A stretch of 64,000 nucleotides of DNA, from assembly GCF_003144245.1 (NCBI RefSeq), contig NW_020289986.1:493305-557304 (forward strand), written 5' to 3'. This document shows, piece after piece, positions 11,437-26,870 of this stretch (positions are counted from its first letter, which is position 1; every line of letters begins with the position of its first letter). Source of the DNA: Jaminaea rosea. Its lineage: Eukaryota > Basidiomycota > Exobasidiomycetes > Microstromatales. Both the position numbers and the translations under genes were made by a program. The notes beneath the pieces are model-generated. The model saw nothing but the letters and a program-made list of their open reading frames with translations, did not search any database and was not told where the DNA came from.

Positions 11437-13509
11437 CTACGCCAGCACAGTCGGCCTCGTCGGCGAGGCATTGGAGAAGAAGGTGTACAGGTTCATGCGA
11501 CTGGATCCACCACAGTAGAGCGTCGAATTGCCGTTGCAAGGCATCGAGCAGCCGCGCGCCACGGGCTCCGCATTGCTTGCCTTGAAGCCCGTAGGCAGCT
11601 TCGTTGCGCCCCAGCACTCCCCACCGTACTCGACGCCGCAGAAGGTCATCTTCTTTGCCTGGCACCCAGCGAGGCAACCCGCTACCGTGTTGGCCGGGTT
11701 CGAGATGCCCGTCGGCAGAGTGCGCGCACTTGGCGAGTCGACGGCGCAGTCGGTGAAGTTCCATTGTCCCTGCTGCATGACGGTGAATTGGCTCTGCTTC
11801 CAGGCGTTGTCCTTGTAGACCTGCAATCGGCTCGCGGCACCGCAGAAGCTCGTCTTGTCGCCCGAGCACAACATGCTGCACTGCGAGTCGGCCAGCTTGG
11901 CAGTCGAAATCGATGCGCCGCAATAGCACTCGGACGAGTACTGAGTGGCCGAGAACTGCAGACCCTTGGATGCGCAGAAGGCGGCACACTGAGTGGGCGT
12001 GTTGGTGCTGTTCGAGTACGAGGCCTTGGAAAGAGCTCGCCCGCCGCTGAGCTCCTGGTAGCAGCCCTGGTAGCTCGACGTGCCAGCGGTAGGCGGGATG
12101 GAAGTAGCAGCCGTAGTTGTCACGGCCTTGATAGAGTAGACGGAGAGCAAGCTGCTACCACCGCACGTCTCCGTCGAGTTGCCGGGGCAAGCCATGTTGC
12201 AGAAGTCGTCAGAGACCTTCTTGGCACCAGAGGTCATGGAGTTGTCGCACCAGCACTCTTGGCCGTACTCCATGCCGGCGACGGAGAAGCCAGCAGCGGA
12301 GCAGGCGGCGCGGCAGACGCTCGTGCTCATCTGACCCTTGTAGCTGACCTTGTTGACGAGGGCTCGTGCGTTCGTGGGCTCCTGGTAGCAGCCCCGGTAG
12401 GCGGCGTCGGCGGGCGTCGAGTTGTTGGGCGTGGCCGTCGTCGTAGGGCTGCTGGCCGTGCAGCCAGCGCCAGCGCCCTTGAAAGGACCGTTTTTAACCG
12501 TCTGGCAACCTGGAAGAGCATCAAAGTTGCTACCGAGGACGACCTCATTGACGGCAGCGCCCGTACGGCAGTAGCCGGCTGCCGGGTCTGCGCTGTTGGG
12601 CGTCGTCGTCTCTTCATGGATCGAGGGAACAAAGGGAGCACACTGGCGAATGTTGCCGCCAAGCTCGCCATCGCACTCGTCAATGGCAGCCTTGAGCACC
12701 GTCGTATCCCAGTCGCTGACGAAGTCTGCGTGGAAAGAGTAGCCGATGGCGTCTCCGTTTGCGAGAACAAAGCCGCTGCTCGAATTGCCCTTTGTGACGC
12801 TGCCCTGGAGCGATCCAGTGTCGTAGATGAACTCGTAGAACAGGGTCATGAACTTGATGGGGTGCGTTGAGGGGCAGTCACCCGTGTCGGCCTGGCCACC
12901 AATGGGGTAGGCGACGTGCGACTGATGGTCGTCCGAGTCGAGGTCCTTGCCGTTCCAGCACGAAGGGAAGACGATCTGAGCGCGCATACCGCCGGAGCAC
13001 ACGCCAGTGGGCAGCGTCGTGGTCTGAGGGTTGTTGCCGCCGAGGCAGACGAAGCTGACGGCCTTGGCCTTGATGGGGTCAGAGTTGGGTGCGTCAAAGA
13101 GCATGGCTGAGCCAGCAATCATCTTGAGACCCTTGGGGAACGGCTGGAGCGATGTAGAGTCCTCGCCCATCTTGGGACCGCCGCGGTTGAGATAGTAGGT
13201 GTTGACGGTGCCGAGGTTGATGGACGCAAACTTGCGTGTGTCACCGTTGTAGTAGTAGAGCTGAGGCGCCCAGTACTTGCTGAGGTCGGCCTTGACGGGG
13301 CTGGTGGTGCACATCGTGTTGACGTCTTGACCGGGTTGAATGGCAGCTGAGCCGACAAAGGCGTGCGTGTGACCTGAGATGCCATTGGGGGCGATGATGG
13401 GGTCGAGGCGCTGTGAGACGAGGTTGTGGTGGCCAAGAATCCAATATGCGTGGGCAGAGGGCACCAAGGCGAGGAGCGCAAGTACGACGAGTGGGGTCCA
13501 CGACAACAT
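11437..13509 (-). CDS. Secreted DUF1996 protein with three WSC domains
   Basis: Secreted or wall-associated protein of 690 aa, single exon. The ATG at 13509 opens a clear signal peptide (MLSWTPLVVLALLALVPSAHA). Residues 22 to about 300 form a DUF1996 domain: ILGHHNLVSQRLDPI, SGHTHAFVGSAA, and the later CWNGKDLDSDDHQSHVAYP with its conserved His/Asp. Three Cys-rich WSC modules follow, starting near YRGCYQEPTNARAL, YQGCYQELSGGRAL and WNFTDCAVDSPSAR. Each carries the YGxECWC/YSSECYC/YGGECWG core and a CxGxxxxxCGG closing motif; the third is the most divergent. WSC modules bind polysaccharide, so wall attachment is likely, though the DUF1996 activity is unknown. No TM helix follows the WSC modules, so this is a soluble protein rather than a Wsc sensor. 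The translation start 66 codons upstream would bury the signal peptide and is rejected. Confidence 0.88.
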   Translation of the reverse strand: MLSWTPLVVLALLALVPSAHAYWILGHHNLVSQRLDPIIAPNGISGHTHAFVGSAAIQPGQDVNTMCTTSPVKADLSKYWAPQLYYYNGDTRKFASINLGTVNTYYLNRGGPKMGEDSTSLQPFPKGLKMIAGSAMLFDAPNSDPIKAKAVSFVCLGGNNPQTTTLPTGVCSGGMRAQIVFPSCWNGKDLDSDDHQSHVAYPIGGQADTGDCPSTHPIKFMTLFYEFIYDTGSLQGSVTKGNSSSGFVLANGDAIGYSFHADFVSDWDTTVLKAAIDECDGELGGNIRQCAPFVPSIHEETTTPNSADPAAGYCRTGAAVNEVVLGSNFDALPGCQTVKNGPFKGAGAGCTASSPTTTATPNNSTPADAAYRGCYQEPTNARALVNKVSYKGQMSTSVCRAACSAAGFSVAGMEYGQECWCDNSMTSGAKKVSDDFCNMACPGNSTETCGGSSLLSVYSIKAVTTTAATSIPPTAGTSSYQGCYQELSGGRALSKASYSNSTNTPTQCAAFCASKGLQFSATQYSSECYCGASISTAKLADSQCSMLCSGDKTSFCGAASRLQVYKDNAWKQSQFTVMQQGQWNFTDCAVDSPSARTLPTGISNPANTVAGCLAGCQAKKMTFCGVEYGGECWGATKLPTGFKASNAEPVARGCSMPCNGNSTLYCGGSSRMNLYTFFSNASPTRPTVLA

Positions 13510-14637
13510 GGCGGGAGAGGGGGTGGAGGGGAGGAGTGAGGGAATCGGAGAGCAAGGAGCGATGAGGAGTCGAGATGGAGCAACTAGTCGCCGCCCATGA
13601 TCCTTTTTGTAGCATCTCGTCCTCGAGCGGTGCTTGCTTCGGCGATGACGATACGGAGGGAGCGAGCAAGCAAGCAAGGGCATCGGTGATTGAAAGGAGC
13701 GCATCATTTGCTTGGCCTATCCGGAGCTCGATCAAGCTCTCTCTGCCGGTTCCTGCGTGGGAGGTCCGAAAGAGGTCGTCGAGGTCATCGAGGTCGTCAT
13801 TCTGGCTAAACAAGGTTGACGAGACGCTTTGACGTGAGAAACGGAACCCAACTTGGAACAACCAACATCTCTCGTCCGTCGAAAGCTCTCGTGCTCCCTT
13901 CCCGCCTGTGCCGGTCGACGCGTCGACCGCATGCGGGCGCGGAGACTTTCGAAGCCCGCCACGACTCTCGGGACGACGCACAGACGCCACGCCACGCACG
14001 CCCGGCTCATCGAATCTTCCTTTTCTCGTCGCCGCTTCAAGCTTTGAATGCTCCTCGACGACAACGCAGAGCCAGTGATCGAGCGGAGACGCGACCGTGA
14101 CGTCGTGAATACAGGCAGGCCTATCGCGGCGACTTGCTCCTCTTGCTCTTCCGGCTGCCGCTGCATCATCGTCTATGGCTAGCGTCGCCAGCCGTTGCCC
14201 TCTCCGTCAGTGCCTCGACCATCGACCGCGTGGCGCTATTCGAGAGCTTAAAAGTGGCTCTAGCTCTGCGACCAATCTCGCTGAGACAGCACGATAGGAT
14301 AAAGCGTGGGTACAAGGACAATTACGGCGACCGCATTCTCTCCTAGCGAGAGGCGATTGGATTGATCGGGGCCCGAGACAACTCAGTGTCACCGAGCGAG
14401 CTCCCACGCTTTGTCGTTGGGCAGTGCACGGTGCGCATCATCTTGTGCCCATTTCGCCTTGTGATGCCATAATCGCACGCCCGACGTAAGTTCAGGCCGG
14501 AGGTGCTCTGATGATCGAAGTGATTGCCGATACCACTCGAGCGCTAAGTGGTGTCTCGGCCGGATACGCTAGGCGCGGTGTGGTTGTTGATGTCGTATCG
14601 CACCTGAAGTTGCTACTCGCTGCTCCTCGCGACGTTC
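13510..14637. promoter_or_regulatory. Upstream region of the DUF1996/WSC gene
   Basis: 1.13 kb between the WSC gene start and the stop of the next minus-strand gene. It includes a run of GTCGAGGTCATC-type short repeats (about 13768-13800) and a TGACGTC core at about 14098, followed by GTGA. No gene recognised; small frames are Arg/Ser-rich shadows. Confidence 0.4.
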
Positions 14638-20851: not shown

Positions 20852-23800
20852 ATGACTACCACCGCAGAGGCAGGACCAGGGGCAGCGATGCCATCTTCCT
20901 CTTCCTCATCATCGTCGCACATCACGACCAAGATAGCTCAGCATACATCGTCGTCACAATCGCGTCCCTTTTGGTCGCTCGAGTTCTTCCCTCCTAAGAC
21001 CTCCCAAGGCCAGGCCAACCTACTCGCCCGCATGTCTCGCATGAATGCCACCCTTTCCCCACAGTGGAACCACGTCACATGGGGGGCTGGCGGATCGACA
21101 AAGGAACGCAGCTTGGAATTGGCAGCGAGGGGTCAGAGGGGCGTGTGGGATCCGGTAGTTCCCATGGAGGGTGTGAGGGAGGACTTGGATTGCGAGGCGG
21201 CCATGGATTCGTGTTTGCATTTGACGTGTACCAATGTCGATAAGGATAGTTTGGATGAGACGCTCGAAGAGGCCAAGAGGCTGGGGATCAGAAATATTCT
21301 GGCGTTGAGGGGTGATCCGCCTCGGGGGGACGAGTATTGTGAGTTGGCGACTCGAGAGAAGGAAGGTGATCTGATCATGCTTGGCTCACTTCACTCATTC
21401 GCAGGGGTGGCCGCCGACTCACGCTTCCAACGAGCGACGGACCTCGTCGAATACATCCGTCAATCCCACGGCGACTTCTTCTGCATCGGCGTAGCAGGTT
21501 ATCCAGAGGGATACTGCGACAGCCTCGACCAGGACATCGACCGCGATGTGCGCTTCCTCAAAGCCAAACAGGATTGTGGCGCTGACTTCGTCGTCACGCA
21601 GCTCTTCTACGACGTCGATGTCTTCGTAGAATGGTATCGCAGATGTAGAGAAGCGGGAATCACCATCCCCATCCTGCCTGGTATCATGCCCATTCAGAAC
21701 TACCAGTGCGTGCCCCAGAGCAAGCTGCGACTGCTCAGCTCTGTCTTCACAATTGCTTATCTCTCTCGCCCTCACCCTGACCCGCGCAGATCATTCCGCC
21801 GCATGACGAACCTCTGCAAGTCCAAGGTGCCCCCCACAGTCCTCGCAGCCCTCGAGCCCATCCGCTTCGACGACGCAGCGGTAAAGGAGTACGGCGTCCA
21901 TCTCGCCATCAGCATGATCGCGCGCCTCTACCTAGAGACGGACATTCGGGGCTTCCATTTGTGCACTCTCAACCTCGAGAAGAGCGTGCGAAGGGTGCTC
22001 GAGGGATTAGGGTGGGTCGAGTGCCAGCAGGAGGGGGCCGAGACGCTTCCTGCGACCGGCGCGAAGGTGCCGTCCTTCAAGTCGAGGGATACCCACGCCA
22101 ACATCGATTACAGAGCCGTGACGGAGGAGGCGCTCGCACGAGCACAGGCAGCAGCAAAGGGGGCGAATAGATCAGCGGCCGCAGCGACGAGCGATGCGAC
22201 ATGGGACGAATTCCCCAACGTGAGTATGGGCGGGTGGTGGCAGCCAGATCACCCAGATGCTGACCAACCCGTCTTCTCCTTACGCTCCTCACTAGGGCCG
22301 CTTCGGAGACGCGCGCAGTCCCGCCTTTGGTGAAATCGACGGCTACGGAGTCTCGCTCAAGGTCCCGCCCGCAGACGCCCTCCGCATCTGGGGATACCCA
22401 GTCAGCGACGACGACATCAGCGCCATCTTCTCGTCGTACCTCGTAGACAAGATTCAGTGCATCCCCTGGTGCGACGCGCCCATCTTCGACGAGACGCTGG
22501 CCATCCAGCAGTGGCTTTTGGCTCTTAATGCCCCGGGAAAGGGATGGTGGACCGTAGGGTCGCAGCCGGCTGTTGATGGCGTGTCAAGTGCGGATCCTAC
22601 GTACGGCTTCGGGCCGCGAGACGGATACGTGTATCAGAAGTGAGTGCAGCAGTGAACCGGCTCAAGCTGCGCAACGCAATGGCTGACCAGATATGGTCAC
22701 TCTCGCCCCTTCGCAGGGCCTTTGTCGAATTCTTCATGAGCGAGTCAGACAAAGACGCCCTCGCTGCCCGCATCGAGGCAGAGGGGCAAGGCAAGCTCAC
22801 CTTCTTCGCGGGCAATCGTCGCGGCGATTTTGAGACCAACATGCCCCAGGGAGGGCAAGTCGAGGCAGTCACCTGGGGCATCTTCCCCGGCAAGGAGATT
22901 GCTCAGCCTACGATCATCGAGGAGGAGTCCTTCAAAGCTTGGCGGGACGAGGCGTTTGATATCTGGAGGGAGTGGGAGTCTCTCTTCCCTAAGCGGAGTG
23001 CTACGGCTCAGTTGATGAGGGAGATCGGGGAGAAGAGGTGGTTGGTTACAGTGGTGCATCATGACTATAAGGATGAGGCGGGATTGTGGCGCTTCCTGAG
23101 AGCAGACGTCGCTCAGCCCCAAGCCGCACCTCAGAGCCCCTCGCCCACCACGGTCGTCTCTGCACCGGGCAAGGTCCTCGTCGCTGGCGGGTACCTCGTC
23201 CTTTCCCCTGCTTATCCTGGCCTCGTTATCAGCACCGACGCCCGCTTCTACTCGGTCATTGCGGCGGGAACTGCAGGCAGGCTATCCATTCGCTCGCCTC
23301 AGTTCACACAGGCTGTCTGGCACTTTGATCTCGACATCGAGAGCGGAGCGCTCTCGCTCAGCTCCGAGTCGGCGTCCTCGCCCTATGCAGGTCGATCACC
23401 CTTCCTCTGTCTCGCCCTCGTCTACTCACTTGCTCTTGCGTACCAGCGTGTACCTCTGCCGGCGCTGCGCGCCAAGCTGGCGCAAGGATTGGAGATCACG
23501 GTCGTTGCGGACAATGACTTCTACTCGCAGAAGGCCGAGGGCAGCGAGGATGCTCCAACATCGCAATACCTCTCCTCGCTCGCCCCCTTCCACCCATTGG
23601 ACGTAGCGATCCGCGACGTCCACAAGACCGGGCTTGGGTCCTCCGCTGCCCTCACCACCTCGCTCGTCTCCTCGCTCTTGCTGCACCTGGGCGTCGTCCG
23701 CACGCTTGAAAACGACGACGACCTTGCCCTTGCCCTTGCCCACAACACTGCGCAGCTGGCACACTGTGCGGCGCAGGGCAAAATAGGCAGCGGTTTCGAC

Positions 23801-24838
23801 GTCAGCGCGGCGGTATGGGGCAGTCAGATCTACAGGCGCTTCGATGCCAAGGTGCTTGAGCCTCTCCTGGCTAGCATACCCAAGATACCCGTCACCGGCG
23901 CGCCCAAGGGAGAGGCAGGCGAGCTGGCCTCACTCCGCGACGTCGAATCGCTAGGCCCCCACTTGGATCCGCTCCAGCAGCCGCTCTGGAAGCCCTCGCC
24001 CCTCTCTGCTACGACCACGAGCAATGCCCACCCAACCGCCTTCGAGGGCCTCGCCGCCACGACTGCCTCATCAACATCGCTACGTCCCGCTCCTCTCTCG
24101 CTCCCCGCAGGCATCTCCCTGCTCCTCGCAGATGTCGATGCCGGATCAAATACGCCCTCGCTCGTCTCGTCCGTCCAGGCGTGGAGGACAAAGAAGCCCG
24201 AGTGGGCAAAACAGCTCTACGATGTCATTGCGTCGAGCAACTCGGCGCTCGCTGACGCGTTTGCACGGATGGCACTCGCGCAGGGAGGGGCCGCTGATGA
24301 GTACAAAGAGACGCTGGAGTGGGCGAAGGGGAGGAAGAGCAGCGAATGGGGAGGCGTGTCCGACGGGTGTGGACACGGACATGCCCACGGCGTGCACGAT
24401 GGCGGCGAAACGGGTACATCGTCTTCCACTCGCCTCGCCGAGAGCGAGACGGGCCGAGCCCTCATTGCCGCTCGCGATGCGCTACGCTCCACACGCGCAG
24501 GTATGCGCGAACTAGGAAGGCTGAGCGGCGCGCCCGTAGAGCCGGACAGCATGGGTCGGGTGCTGAGCGCTGCGATCGACGGAGTGCCGGGAGTGCTTGG
24601 CGGCGGCGTGCCCGGCGCTGGTGGGTATGATGCGCTCTACGTTCTCTACGTTGAGGCGGAGGGCAGGCGCGAGGCACTGGAGGAGATGTTGCGTGCGGCG
24701 GGCAAGCGGGAGAAGGGGGAGAGCGAGCGATTGAGAGTTGGCGTTCTGATGAGCGGGGCTGGTACGGGAGGGGTGAGAGCCGAGTCGCTTCAGGCTGTGC
24801 GTGGTTTGCGGGAGCGTGCCGAGGGTGTCATCATGTAA
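20852..24838 (+). CDS. MTHFR-ERG8: Methylenetetrahydrofolate reductase-phosphomevalonate kinase fusion
   Basis: Predicted bifunctional protein of 1,227 aa. Exons 20852-21338, 21405-21705, 21790-22219, 22296-22639 and 22717-24838. Residues about 35-330 are the MTHFR barrel (FWSLEFFPPKT, HLTCTN, ALRGDPPRG, VAGYPEGY, TQLFYD, PGIMPIQNYQSFRRM). Residues about 345-650 are the C-terminal regulatory domain, ending in the family's VVHHDYKDEAGLWRFL. After a 15-residue Pro/Gln/Ser linker (652-666) comes a GHMP kinase: VVSAPGKVLVAGGYLVL, VHKTGLGSSAALTTSL (about 822) and the third motif GVPGAGGYDALYVLY (about 1152), which is phosphomevalonate kinase (Erg8). No stop codon, and no ATG between residue 622 or so and the kinase, separates the two enzymes. 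MTHFR makes 5-methyl-THF for methionine synthesis; Erg8 makes mevalonate diphosphate for sterols. Both halves look complete and catalytically intact. The 3' end is 99 bp from the convergent PHO89 stop. Confidence 0.88.
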
Positions 24839-24904
24839 AAGTGTCATTGAATGAGGCATCGTGCACACGTGCGGGTGACAAAGGATGAAACAGATAGCAT
24901 ATAC

Positions 24905-24930
24905 AGAGCAGAGAGAGAGAGAGAGAGCGC
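24905..24930. repeat. (GA)n tract next to the PHO89 stop
   Basis: CAGAGCAGAGAGAGAGAGAG-type dinucleotide run in the 99-bp gap between the convergent MTHFR-PMK and PHO89 stops, probably in both 3' UTRs. Confidence 0.7.
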
Positions 24931-24937
24931 GCGTAGA

Positions 24938-26870
24938 TCAGACGAAGCGGGGAGCGGCCAGGATGGCGGCCATGGGGAGACCGGCGAGGAGACCGGCAAT
25001 GGGGATCGTGACGATCCAGGAGAGGAAGAGGAGTCCGACTCGCTGCCAGTTGACGGCCTTGAAGGTGCCGTTGCAGAGACCGACGCCGACGGTTGCGCCC
25101 GTGATGCACATGCTGGTGGAGACGGGGAGCTTGTACTGCGAGAAGATGAGGATGGTAATGGCCGCACCGAGCTCCATCGAGGTACCACGAGAGGGCGAGT
25201 GGTAGGTGAGCTTGGAGCCCATGACGGTCATGATCTTGTAGCCGTAGGTGACGAAGCCGAAGACGAGGACGAGGGCGAGGACGGCAATCTGCCAGGTGGC
25301 GACGGGGAGCTTCGAGGCGGCCGGGTTGCCCGTGGACCATGCAGAGTAGATGACGGCCCAAGGAGCGACGGCGTTACCGATGTCGTTGGCGCCGTGGGCG
25401 AAGGAGGCGGTGCATGCCGTGATCAACTGGATGAAAGAGTAGGTGTGCTCGACCTCGTTGGGGTACATCTTGGCGTGGGCGTAGACGCGCTCCATGCGGT
25501 TGCCCTCGGGGGTGCCTGCGACACCGGCCTGAGCGACGTGGATGTCGTAGTGGGAACCGTAGAGGAGGGCGACGACGCACATGGCGGGGAGGCGCTTGGC
25601 GTAGAGCTTCATGTTGTGCGTCTCGTAGCAAGCACCGTCGCCGATGGGGTTGGCGTGGAGGTAGCGCATGGCCCAGCCGAGGGGACCGGTGCCCTGGCGC
25701 AGCTTGGCGTGGAGACGCTCGCGAGCCTCAGCTTCGAGCTCCTGATACGTCTTGTGAGGAGCGATGAGGTCGTTGACGGGGGCGATCTTCTCGTCGGAGG
25801 AGTCGTCACCGGTCTGCGTGGACTCCTCGGTGTTGGGAACGTAGTCCTTGTGCTGGACGACGGCGTAGTTGGGGACAATGGCGACGGCAGACTCAGCCTC
25901 GGTGGCGTAGGGGCGCGACCAGAGGAGGGGACCCATGATGACTTGCCAGGCCTTGAGGGTCTGGTCCTTCTTGATGACCTTGGCGTGGAGCCACGGGACG
26001 AAGAAGAGGGCAGAGAGGAGGGCGAGTCCAAAGCCGGTGCCGAGGGAGACGGCGACGATGAAGCTAGGGGGCTTCTTGTCAAGGCCGAGGTTGGGCGATC
26101 CCTTGTAGACGATGGAGAGGGAGCAGACGGTACCGGCGATGAGGAAGAAGAAGGGCGAGGTCCACACAGCCCAGGGGACAGGGTTGCGGCGGAGGTGGAC
26201 TACGAGCTTGATGAGGAGGAAGGTGATGGCACCGAAGCCGGCGGAGCAGATGGGAGCCATACCGAGACCGGCGAAGATGGCACCGAGACCCTTGCCGTTG
26301 TTCCATCCCCATTGCTGGCGCGAGGAAGGGAGGAGGAGAGGTCAGCACAATAATGCGAGAGGCTTTGTGGATGCGCGCTGCTACTCACGACGTTGCGGGC
26401 GCCGGCCGTGGCGATACCGACACCAGCGACGGCCGAGATGAGCGAATAGGTCGACGAGACGTGGGCAGAGTGACGAGTGCACCACATGACCCAGGACGAG
26501 GCACCGGCGAGGGCGCAAGTGAAAGCGAGCATCTGAACACCAGCGTTGCCACGGAAGGCGCTGCGAGCGAGGCGAAGAGATGTTGTGTGTGAGCAAGGAA
26601 ATGGAGGCTGGGCATCTCGCGCGCGCACACTCACGTTGGCGGAATGATACCGTTCTTGATCGTGTCGGCTGTTCGTGCTCCTACGGTGAGGGCACCAAGC
26701 AACTCAAAGACCAGGGCGCAGACCATGGCCATGCGGTATGAAATACTGCGACTCGAGACCGAGGTAGCCCAAGCGTTGGCCACATCGTTGGCGCCGTTGT
26801 TGTAGGCGTCGAGCATGGCAAAGATGGTGCCGATGCCCATGAGGTAGTCATACTGGTGGAGGTACGGCAT
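24938..26870 (-). CDS. PHO89: Na+/phosphate symporter Pho89 (PiT/SLC20 family)
   Basis: Plasma-membrane sodium-phosphate symporter, 594 aa. Exons 26870-26635, 26560-26389 and 26314-24938; both donors are GTGAGT. The two inverted PiT signatures are present: GANDVANAWATSVSSRS near residue 26 and GANDIGNAVAPWAVIYSAW near residue 440. Hydrophobic helices flank each, and a long hydrophilic loop (about residues 230-400) divides the halves as in Pho89 and human PiT1/2. The last helix ends AAILAAPRFV. High-affinity phosphate uptake under starvation or alkaline pH is the known family role. A CACGTG (Pho4-type) site lies about 670 bp upstream. Confidence 0.94.

Follow-up and report, generated by a model that had tools for sequence, protein, structure and literature searches.

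Does this locus encode a methylenetetrahydrofolate reductase (MTHFR) and a phosphomevalonate kinase (PMK) within one polypeptide, and if so, what would such a protein be and what would the joining of the two enzymes mean? The gene model was translated across five exons and gave a protein of 1227 aa and 132 kDa with a single terminal stop codon and none internal. The four introns measured 66, 84, 76 and 77 nt and were GT-AG in all four cases, bearing out the stop-free five-exon model proposed in the initial annotation. Splice sites were set by reading and homology, not from transcripts. Third-position GC was similar across the protein, at 0.73 for MTHFR and 0.72 for the kinase. Within the 64-kb window (the whole stretch of DNA analysed), tblastn at E 1e-3 returned no further MTHFR or kinase copy beyond the fused gene, and Rfam (gathering threshold) and tRNA searches of the same window gave no hits. 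The short GT-AG introns, taken with a Met12-type MTHFR and an Erg8-type kinase, would suit a fungal source.

Features of the fused gene and their positions in the window
Feature	Coordinates	Strand	Content
Whole fused gene	20852..24838	+	Start to stop codon; 5 exons, 4 introns; 1227 aa
Exon 1	20852..21338	+	Ser/Thr-rich N-terminus, then start of MTHFR barrel
Exon 2	21405..21705	+	MTHFR barrel
Exon 3	21790..22219	+	End of barrel, then start of MTHFR regulatory domain
Exon 4	22296..22639	+	MTHFR SAM-binding regulatory domain
Exon 5	22717..24838	+	End of regulatory domain, linker and entire PMK, uninterrupted
Codon TGC (Cys321)	21962..21964	+	Replaces an otherwise conserved Tyr of the active site (Tyr321 in human, Tyr275 in E. 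coli)
Linker, aa 649-666	23099..23152	+	Separates the MTHFR_C profile match from that of Erg8
Erg8-type PMK domain, aa 667-1227	23153..24835	+	Profile match and motifs
PMK motif SAPGK	from 23159	+	
PMK motif KTGLGSSA	from 23624	+	
PMK motif GSGFD	from 23786	+	
PMK motif PGAGGYDA	from 24611	+	

The gene lies in a compact neighbourhood, with 365 nt of intergenic space on its 5' side and 99 nt on its 3' side up to the stop codon of a convergent PHO4-family phosphate transporter. Opposite the transporter frame (24938-26341, minus strand) runs a 500-aa frame (24851-26353, plus strand), which is probably an artefact because third-position GC is higher in the transporter (0.87 compared to 0.58) and the Pfam match falls on the transporter side. 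Elsewhere in the window, a single frame at 11437-13716 (minus strand) encodes three WSC stretches along with a DUF1996 domain.

The MTHFR half was complete, as had been claimed, with both the barrel and the regulatory domain scoring over their curated cut-offs. The Pfam MTHFR barrel (PF02219; aa 31-337) was matched with 334 bits (cut-off 24), the MTHFR_C regulatory domain (PF21895; aa 397-648) with 182.9 bits (cut-off 27) and the NCBIfam model for eukaryotic MTHFR (TIGR00677) with 351 bits (cut-off 310.05). Identity to yeast Met12 was 48.9% over the barrel and 47.8% over the C-terminal domain, compared to 42.9% and 39.7% for Met13, and a Chaetomium MTHFR followed close behind Met12 (47.5% and 45.3%). 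The 6fnu stretch is found without mismatch in the Met12 sequence used. A five-row tree joined the fused MTHFR to Met12 and not to Met13 with a support of 100/99. By sequence comparison the MTHFR half appears to group with the Met12 (MTHFR2) type rather than with Met13, a point not raised in the initial annotation. The barrel carries an insertion of 18 residues (21146-21199; WDPVVPMEGVREDLDCEA) that none of the four other aligned sequences shows. The N-terminus of the fused protein (20855-20962) is Ser/Thr-rich; in human MTHFR this part of the protein is Ser-rich and phosphorylated.

Identical residues were found in the fusion at 13 of 21 E. coli active-site positions, among them those at E44, T76, H123, R153, D155, Y195, K217 and Q228. 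Only one of the 8 differing positions, Tyr275 (Cys321 in the fusion), was uniform in all five other rows; E. coli His156 corresponds to Tyr199 in the fusion, and four of the five other rows have His there. The codons at 21959-21964 specify Leu-Cys where the aligned MTHFRs have Phe-Tyr or Ile-Tyr (HFYT to HLCT). According to passages of PMC11018872, conservation of human Glu63, Thr94 and Tyr321 is strong or strict in all kingdoms, and these residues contribute to the binding of folate and NAD(P)H. Tyr275 is not mentioned in PMC11094777. Over the columns that are invariant in the five reference rows, the fusion changes 4 of 48 (Y172R, L211V, G313T and Y321C, in fusion numbering). The same count gave 6/50 for Met12, 3/47 for Met13, 1/45 for Chaetomium, 7/51 for human and 72/116 for E. 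coli, which is without the regulatory domain, and the overall rate of changed invariant columns in the fused MTHFR is ordinary on this alignment. The SAM site was compared at the eight human residues named in passages of PMC11018872. Seven are kept (F384, N386, R388, E463, Q485, T573 and W583) and the remaining one, W389, is Phe in the fusion, likewise in both yeast paralogues. Human Arg345, which abuts SAH, aligned with Glu and human Pro348 with Pro, both in a gappy region, and the human auto-inhibitory Tyr404 is Gly in the fusion and in all three of the other fungal rows.

For the kinase half, the NCBIfam Erg8 PMK model (TIGR01219) was the best kinase model, with 287.7 bits for the whole protein, under its curated cut-off of 376.95, and a match starting at aa 667; the kinase half alone scored 292 bits and yeast Erg8 743.6 bits. 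The mevalonate kinase model scored 29.4 bits on the whole protein and 32.2 bits on the kinase alone, and the other PMK models 48.4 bits (archaeal) and 36.1 bits (Gram-positive). Pfam GHMP_kinases_N was matched at aa 824-889 with 22.6 bits (cut-off 22.3). The kinase half has the PMK motifs SAPGK (aa 669), KTGLGSSA (aa 824), GSGFD (aa 878) and PGAGGYDA (aa 1153), all of them common to yeast Erg8. Identity to this Erg8 was 28% over an alignment of 503 columns, comparable to the 29% (150 identities) given for Ustilago maydis Pmk1 (UMAG_00760) against Erg8p in a table of PMC7396576. When PDB sequences were searched with the kinase, a mevalonate kinase (E 0.25) was the sole chain within an E limit of 1, and an AlphaFold model of the kinase part from a single sequence had a mean pLDDT of 36.7, too poor to use. 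A His/Gly-rich stretch in the kinase half (CGHGHAHGVHDGG, at about 24368-24406) is absent from yeast Erg8; it is possibly metal-binding or of low complexity.

The case for a fusion rests on the junction between these two halves. MTHFR homology stops at LWRFL (aa 648), four residues short of the end of yeast Met12 in the same alignment, and the frame then stays open for 579 more codons. Kinase homology begins at aa 667, and yeast Erg8 has just seven residues before SAPGK. The linker that the initial annotation had described is present, at 18 residues between the profile matches (aa 649-666) and not the 15 claimed. The only in-frame ATGs near the junction are M621 (23015), within the MTHFR tail, and then M1039, downstream of the first three kinase motifs. 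On the plus strand in any frame, the ATGs following 23015 lie at 23061 and 23073, both in a frame that stops at 23097, and then at 23385. No ATG occurs from 23074 to 23384 in any plus-strand frame, and the earlier claim that the kinase lacks a start codon of its own held. The out-of-frame TGA at 23097 falls exactly where MTHFR homology ends. A hidden intron parting two genes was rejected, exon 5 containing no GT[AG][AC]G donor before 23766. This pattern fits all four donors of the gene's introns, and the donor screen covered the pattern only, with 16 other GT dinucleotides lying in 22991-23250.

To what extent chance could produce such a junction was gauged on simulated DNA with the dinucleotide make-up of the window. 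Twenty codons without an in-frame stop occurred in 59% of simulated sequences. When the same 60 nt had to be free of ATG as well, the share was 30%, and ATG-free stretches of 312 nt made up 1.8%. Because an open linker commonly arises by chance in such DNA, it is weak evidence by itself. The combination of no MTHFR stop, no kinase start and no intron-like donor makes one fused product the simplest reading. Judged on sequence, the fusion is most likely real and perhaps lineage-specific, and we consider it probable that one gene yields one protein of about 132 kDa, a Met12-type MTHFR followed by an Erg8-type PMK, co-expressed 1:1 after a tolerated intergenic loss.

Two ordinary genes would look like this if an assembly error or a strain-specific deletion had taken out the intergenic region together with the stop codon of MTHFR and the start codon of the kinase, which we regard as unlikely. 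A small base error could mask the true MTHFR stop, given the out-of-frame TGA at 23097. A single-base mis-assembly alone was however rejected, as the kinase would still be without an ATG between 23073 and 23385, and this TGA lies just 53 nt ahead of the kinase match. Such an error would have to delete sequence and yet spare both domains and the frame. Three short imperfect families of direct repeats were found in 22700-23700, none of them with copies flanking the junction on both sides, which also argues against such a deletion; one family (18 nt, 83%) occurs once within the linker and again within the kinase. It is similarly improbable that the fused frame is genuine and gives separate products, through an internal start of transcription or translation (e.g., at M621) or through cleavage in the Pro/Gln/Ser linker. 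Initiation at the in-frame M621 would produce a kinase preceded by 28 residues of the MTHFR C-terminus plus the linker, an in-frame CTG (codon 648) is placed at the junction, and the flexible linker could be cleaved. M621, however, is without a purine at -3, and a form consisting of MTHFR only would need cleavage or an early mRNA end, the frame being stop-free.

Ergosterol synthesis consumes SAM, and a methyl-donor link between the two halves is conceivable for this reason. The MTHFR half, perhaps a weak reductase, would then serve mainly to sense SAM and to dimerise, and would set kinase activity according to methyl-donor status, an arrangement we hold to be very improbable. The retention of seven of the eight SAM-site residues while human Tyr321 is replaced by Cys is consistent with it, as is the statement in passages of a 2026 review (PMC13001107) that the SAM responses of the two yeast isoforms are unknown. 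Eight further active-site residues are kept, however, so that a loss of reductase activity is unsupported; the SAH-contacting Arg345 aligns with Glu (in the gappy region), and nothing ties SAM binding to the kinase. In a more far-reaching version, the Met12-type paralogue, its reductase site altered (Tyr to Cys), would control PMK as a SAM sensor and make isoprenoid supply depend on methyl-donor status. The fusion would then act as a Rosetta stone, tying Met12 to sterol synthesis in fungi generally; we give this very little credence.

If one fused protein is made, as we favour, its origin would lie in the loss of a short intergenic region between neighbouring genes on the same strand. Such a fusion may have been tolerated, the Met12-type MTHFR being the minor paralogue in some fungi. 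The kinase half would convert mevalonate-5-phosphate to mevalonate-5-diphosphate, and it is probably the essential half because ERG8 is essential in yeast. The MTHFR half would dimerise via its regulatory domain like other eukaryotic MTHFRs, and dimerisation of this half would bring two kinases into each dimer, which would thus hold two reductase and two kinase sites. The main consequence would be fixed 1:1 co-expression without a shared intermediate, and no channelling would be expected because the two reactions share none. Of the earlier interpretation, the gene fusion, its two domains and the lack of a start codon for the kinase hold at sequence level; the proposed coupling of flux or stoichiometry is unsupported.

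Published work on fungal MTHFRs bears on how easily such a fusion would be accepted. Fungi are described as having two MTHFR genes, in most species according to passages of PMC3792160 and in all according to passages of PMC13001107, and Met12 is presented in this work as the minor MTHFR in Saccharomyces cerevisiae and Magnaporthe oryzae, which makes an accidental and tolerated fusion easier to accept. Passages of PMC3792160 report that loss of MET13 in S. cerevisiae causes methionine auxotrophy and loss of MET12 no detectable phenotype, and that met12 mutants of M. oryzae show very poor growth when methionine is lacking and yet retain full pathogenicity. In Aspergillus nidulans and Fusarium graminearum, loss of either MTHFR gene leads to methionine auxotrophy (same passages), so the description of a dispensable paralogue is not general. 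The review passages in PMC13001107 add that the eukaryotic MTHFR homodimer forms via the regulatory domain, a feature conserved down to yeast, and that MTHFR isoforms may have distinct functions.

Relatives of the fusion were sought in sequence collections and in the literature. Scans of genome and viral contig collections (without eukaryote genomes) with kinase and MTHFR queries, by short peptide patterns that distant relatives can escape, returned no fungal relative. One scan gave 24 loci (122 stretches fitting a pattern), all from archaeal or bacterial MAGs, with best segments 24-65% identical; the others returned no locus. A TIGR01219 search of one such MAG genome gave matches that were all under the cut-off, and among 14 control genomes one matched (Sulfolobus acidocaldarius), likewise under the cut-off. 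Searches of open-licence PubMed Central full text brought up no paper describing an MTHFR-PMK fusion in its title or in the opening of its abstract, in agreement with the initial annotation, which knew of no described MTHFR-Erg8 fusion; this is weak evidence of absence. Two papers name both enzymes, in unrelated passages. U. maydis Pmk1 is given simply as a phosphomevalonate kinase in passages of PMC7396576 that are silent on fusion, and the word methylenetetrahydrofolate does not occur in the main text of that paper. ERG8 of Xanthophyllomyces dendrorhous is an ordinary single entry in a passage of PMC4393869, also silent on fusion. The U. maydis listing, as far as those passages go, is a hint that basidiomycetes do not generally carry the fusion.

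Both halves are well-known enzymes, and what would be new is their pairing. A fusion retained throughout a clade would tie one-carbon and isoprenoid metabolism in one polypeptide and offer a handle on why fungi retain a second MTHFR. One limited to a single species would be an example of fusion through intergenic loss in a compact genome.

Compared to known systems, the fused protein resembles the bacterial homocysteine S-methyltransferase/MTHFR model (PRK08645) in having an MTHFR barrel joined to a second enzyme. The partner in PRK08645, however, belongs to methionine metabolism and, judging by the model match, stands ahead of the MTHFR part, and the fused protein matches this MTHFR part only (378-587 of 611 model positions; 55 bits, cut-off 453). 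The kinase half differs from S. cerevisiae Erg8 in lacking an N-terminal Met and in being longer, with low-complexity insertions. With S. cerevisiae Met12 and fungal MTHFR2, the fused protein shares the barrel and the SAM-binding regulatory domain, as well as the FPNGRFGD and IIEEESFKAWRDEAF stretches. It differs from Met12 in its barrel insertion, in the Cys at human position 321 and in having no C-terminal stop, the MTHFR half being joined instead to a kinase.
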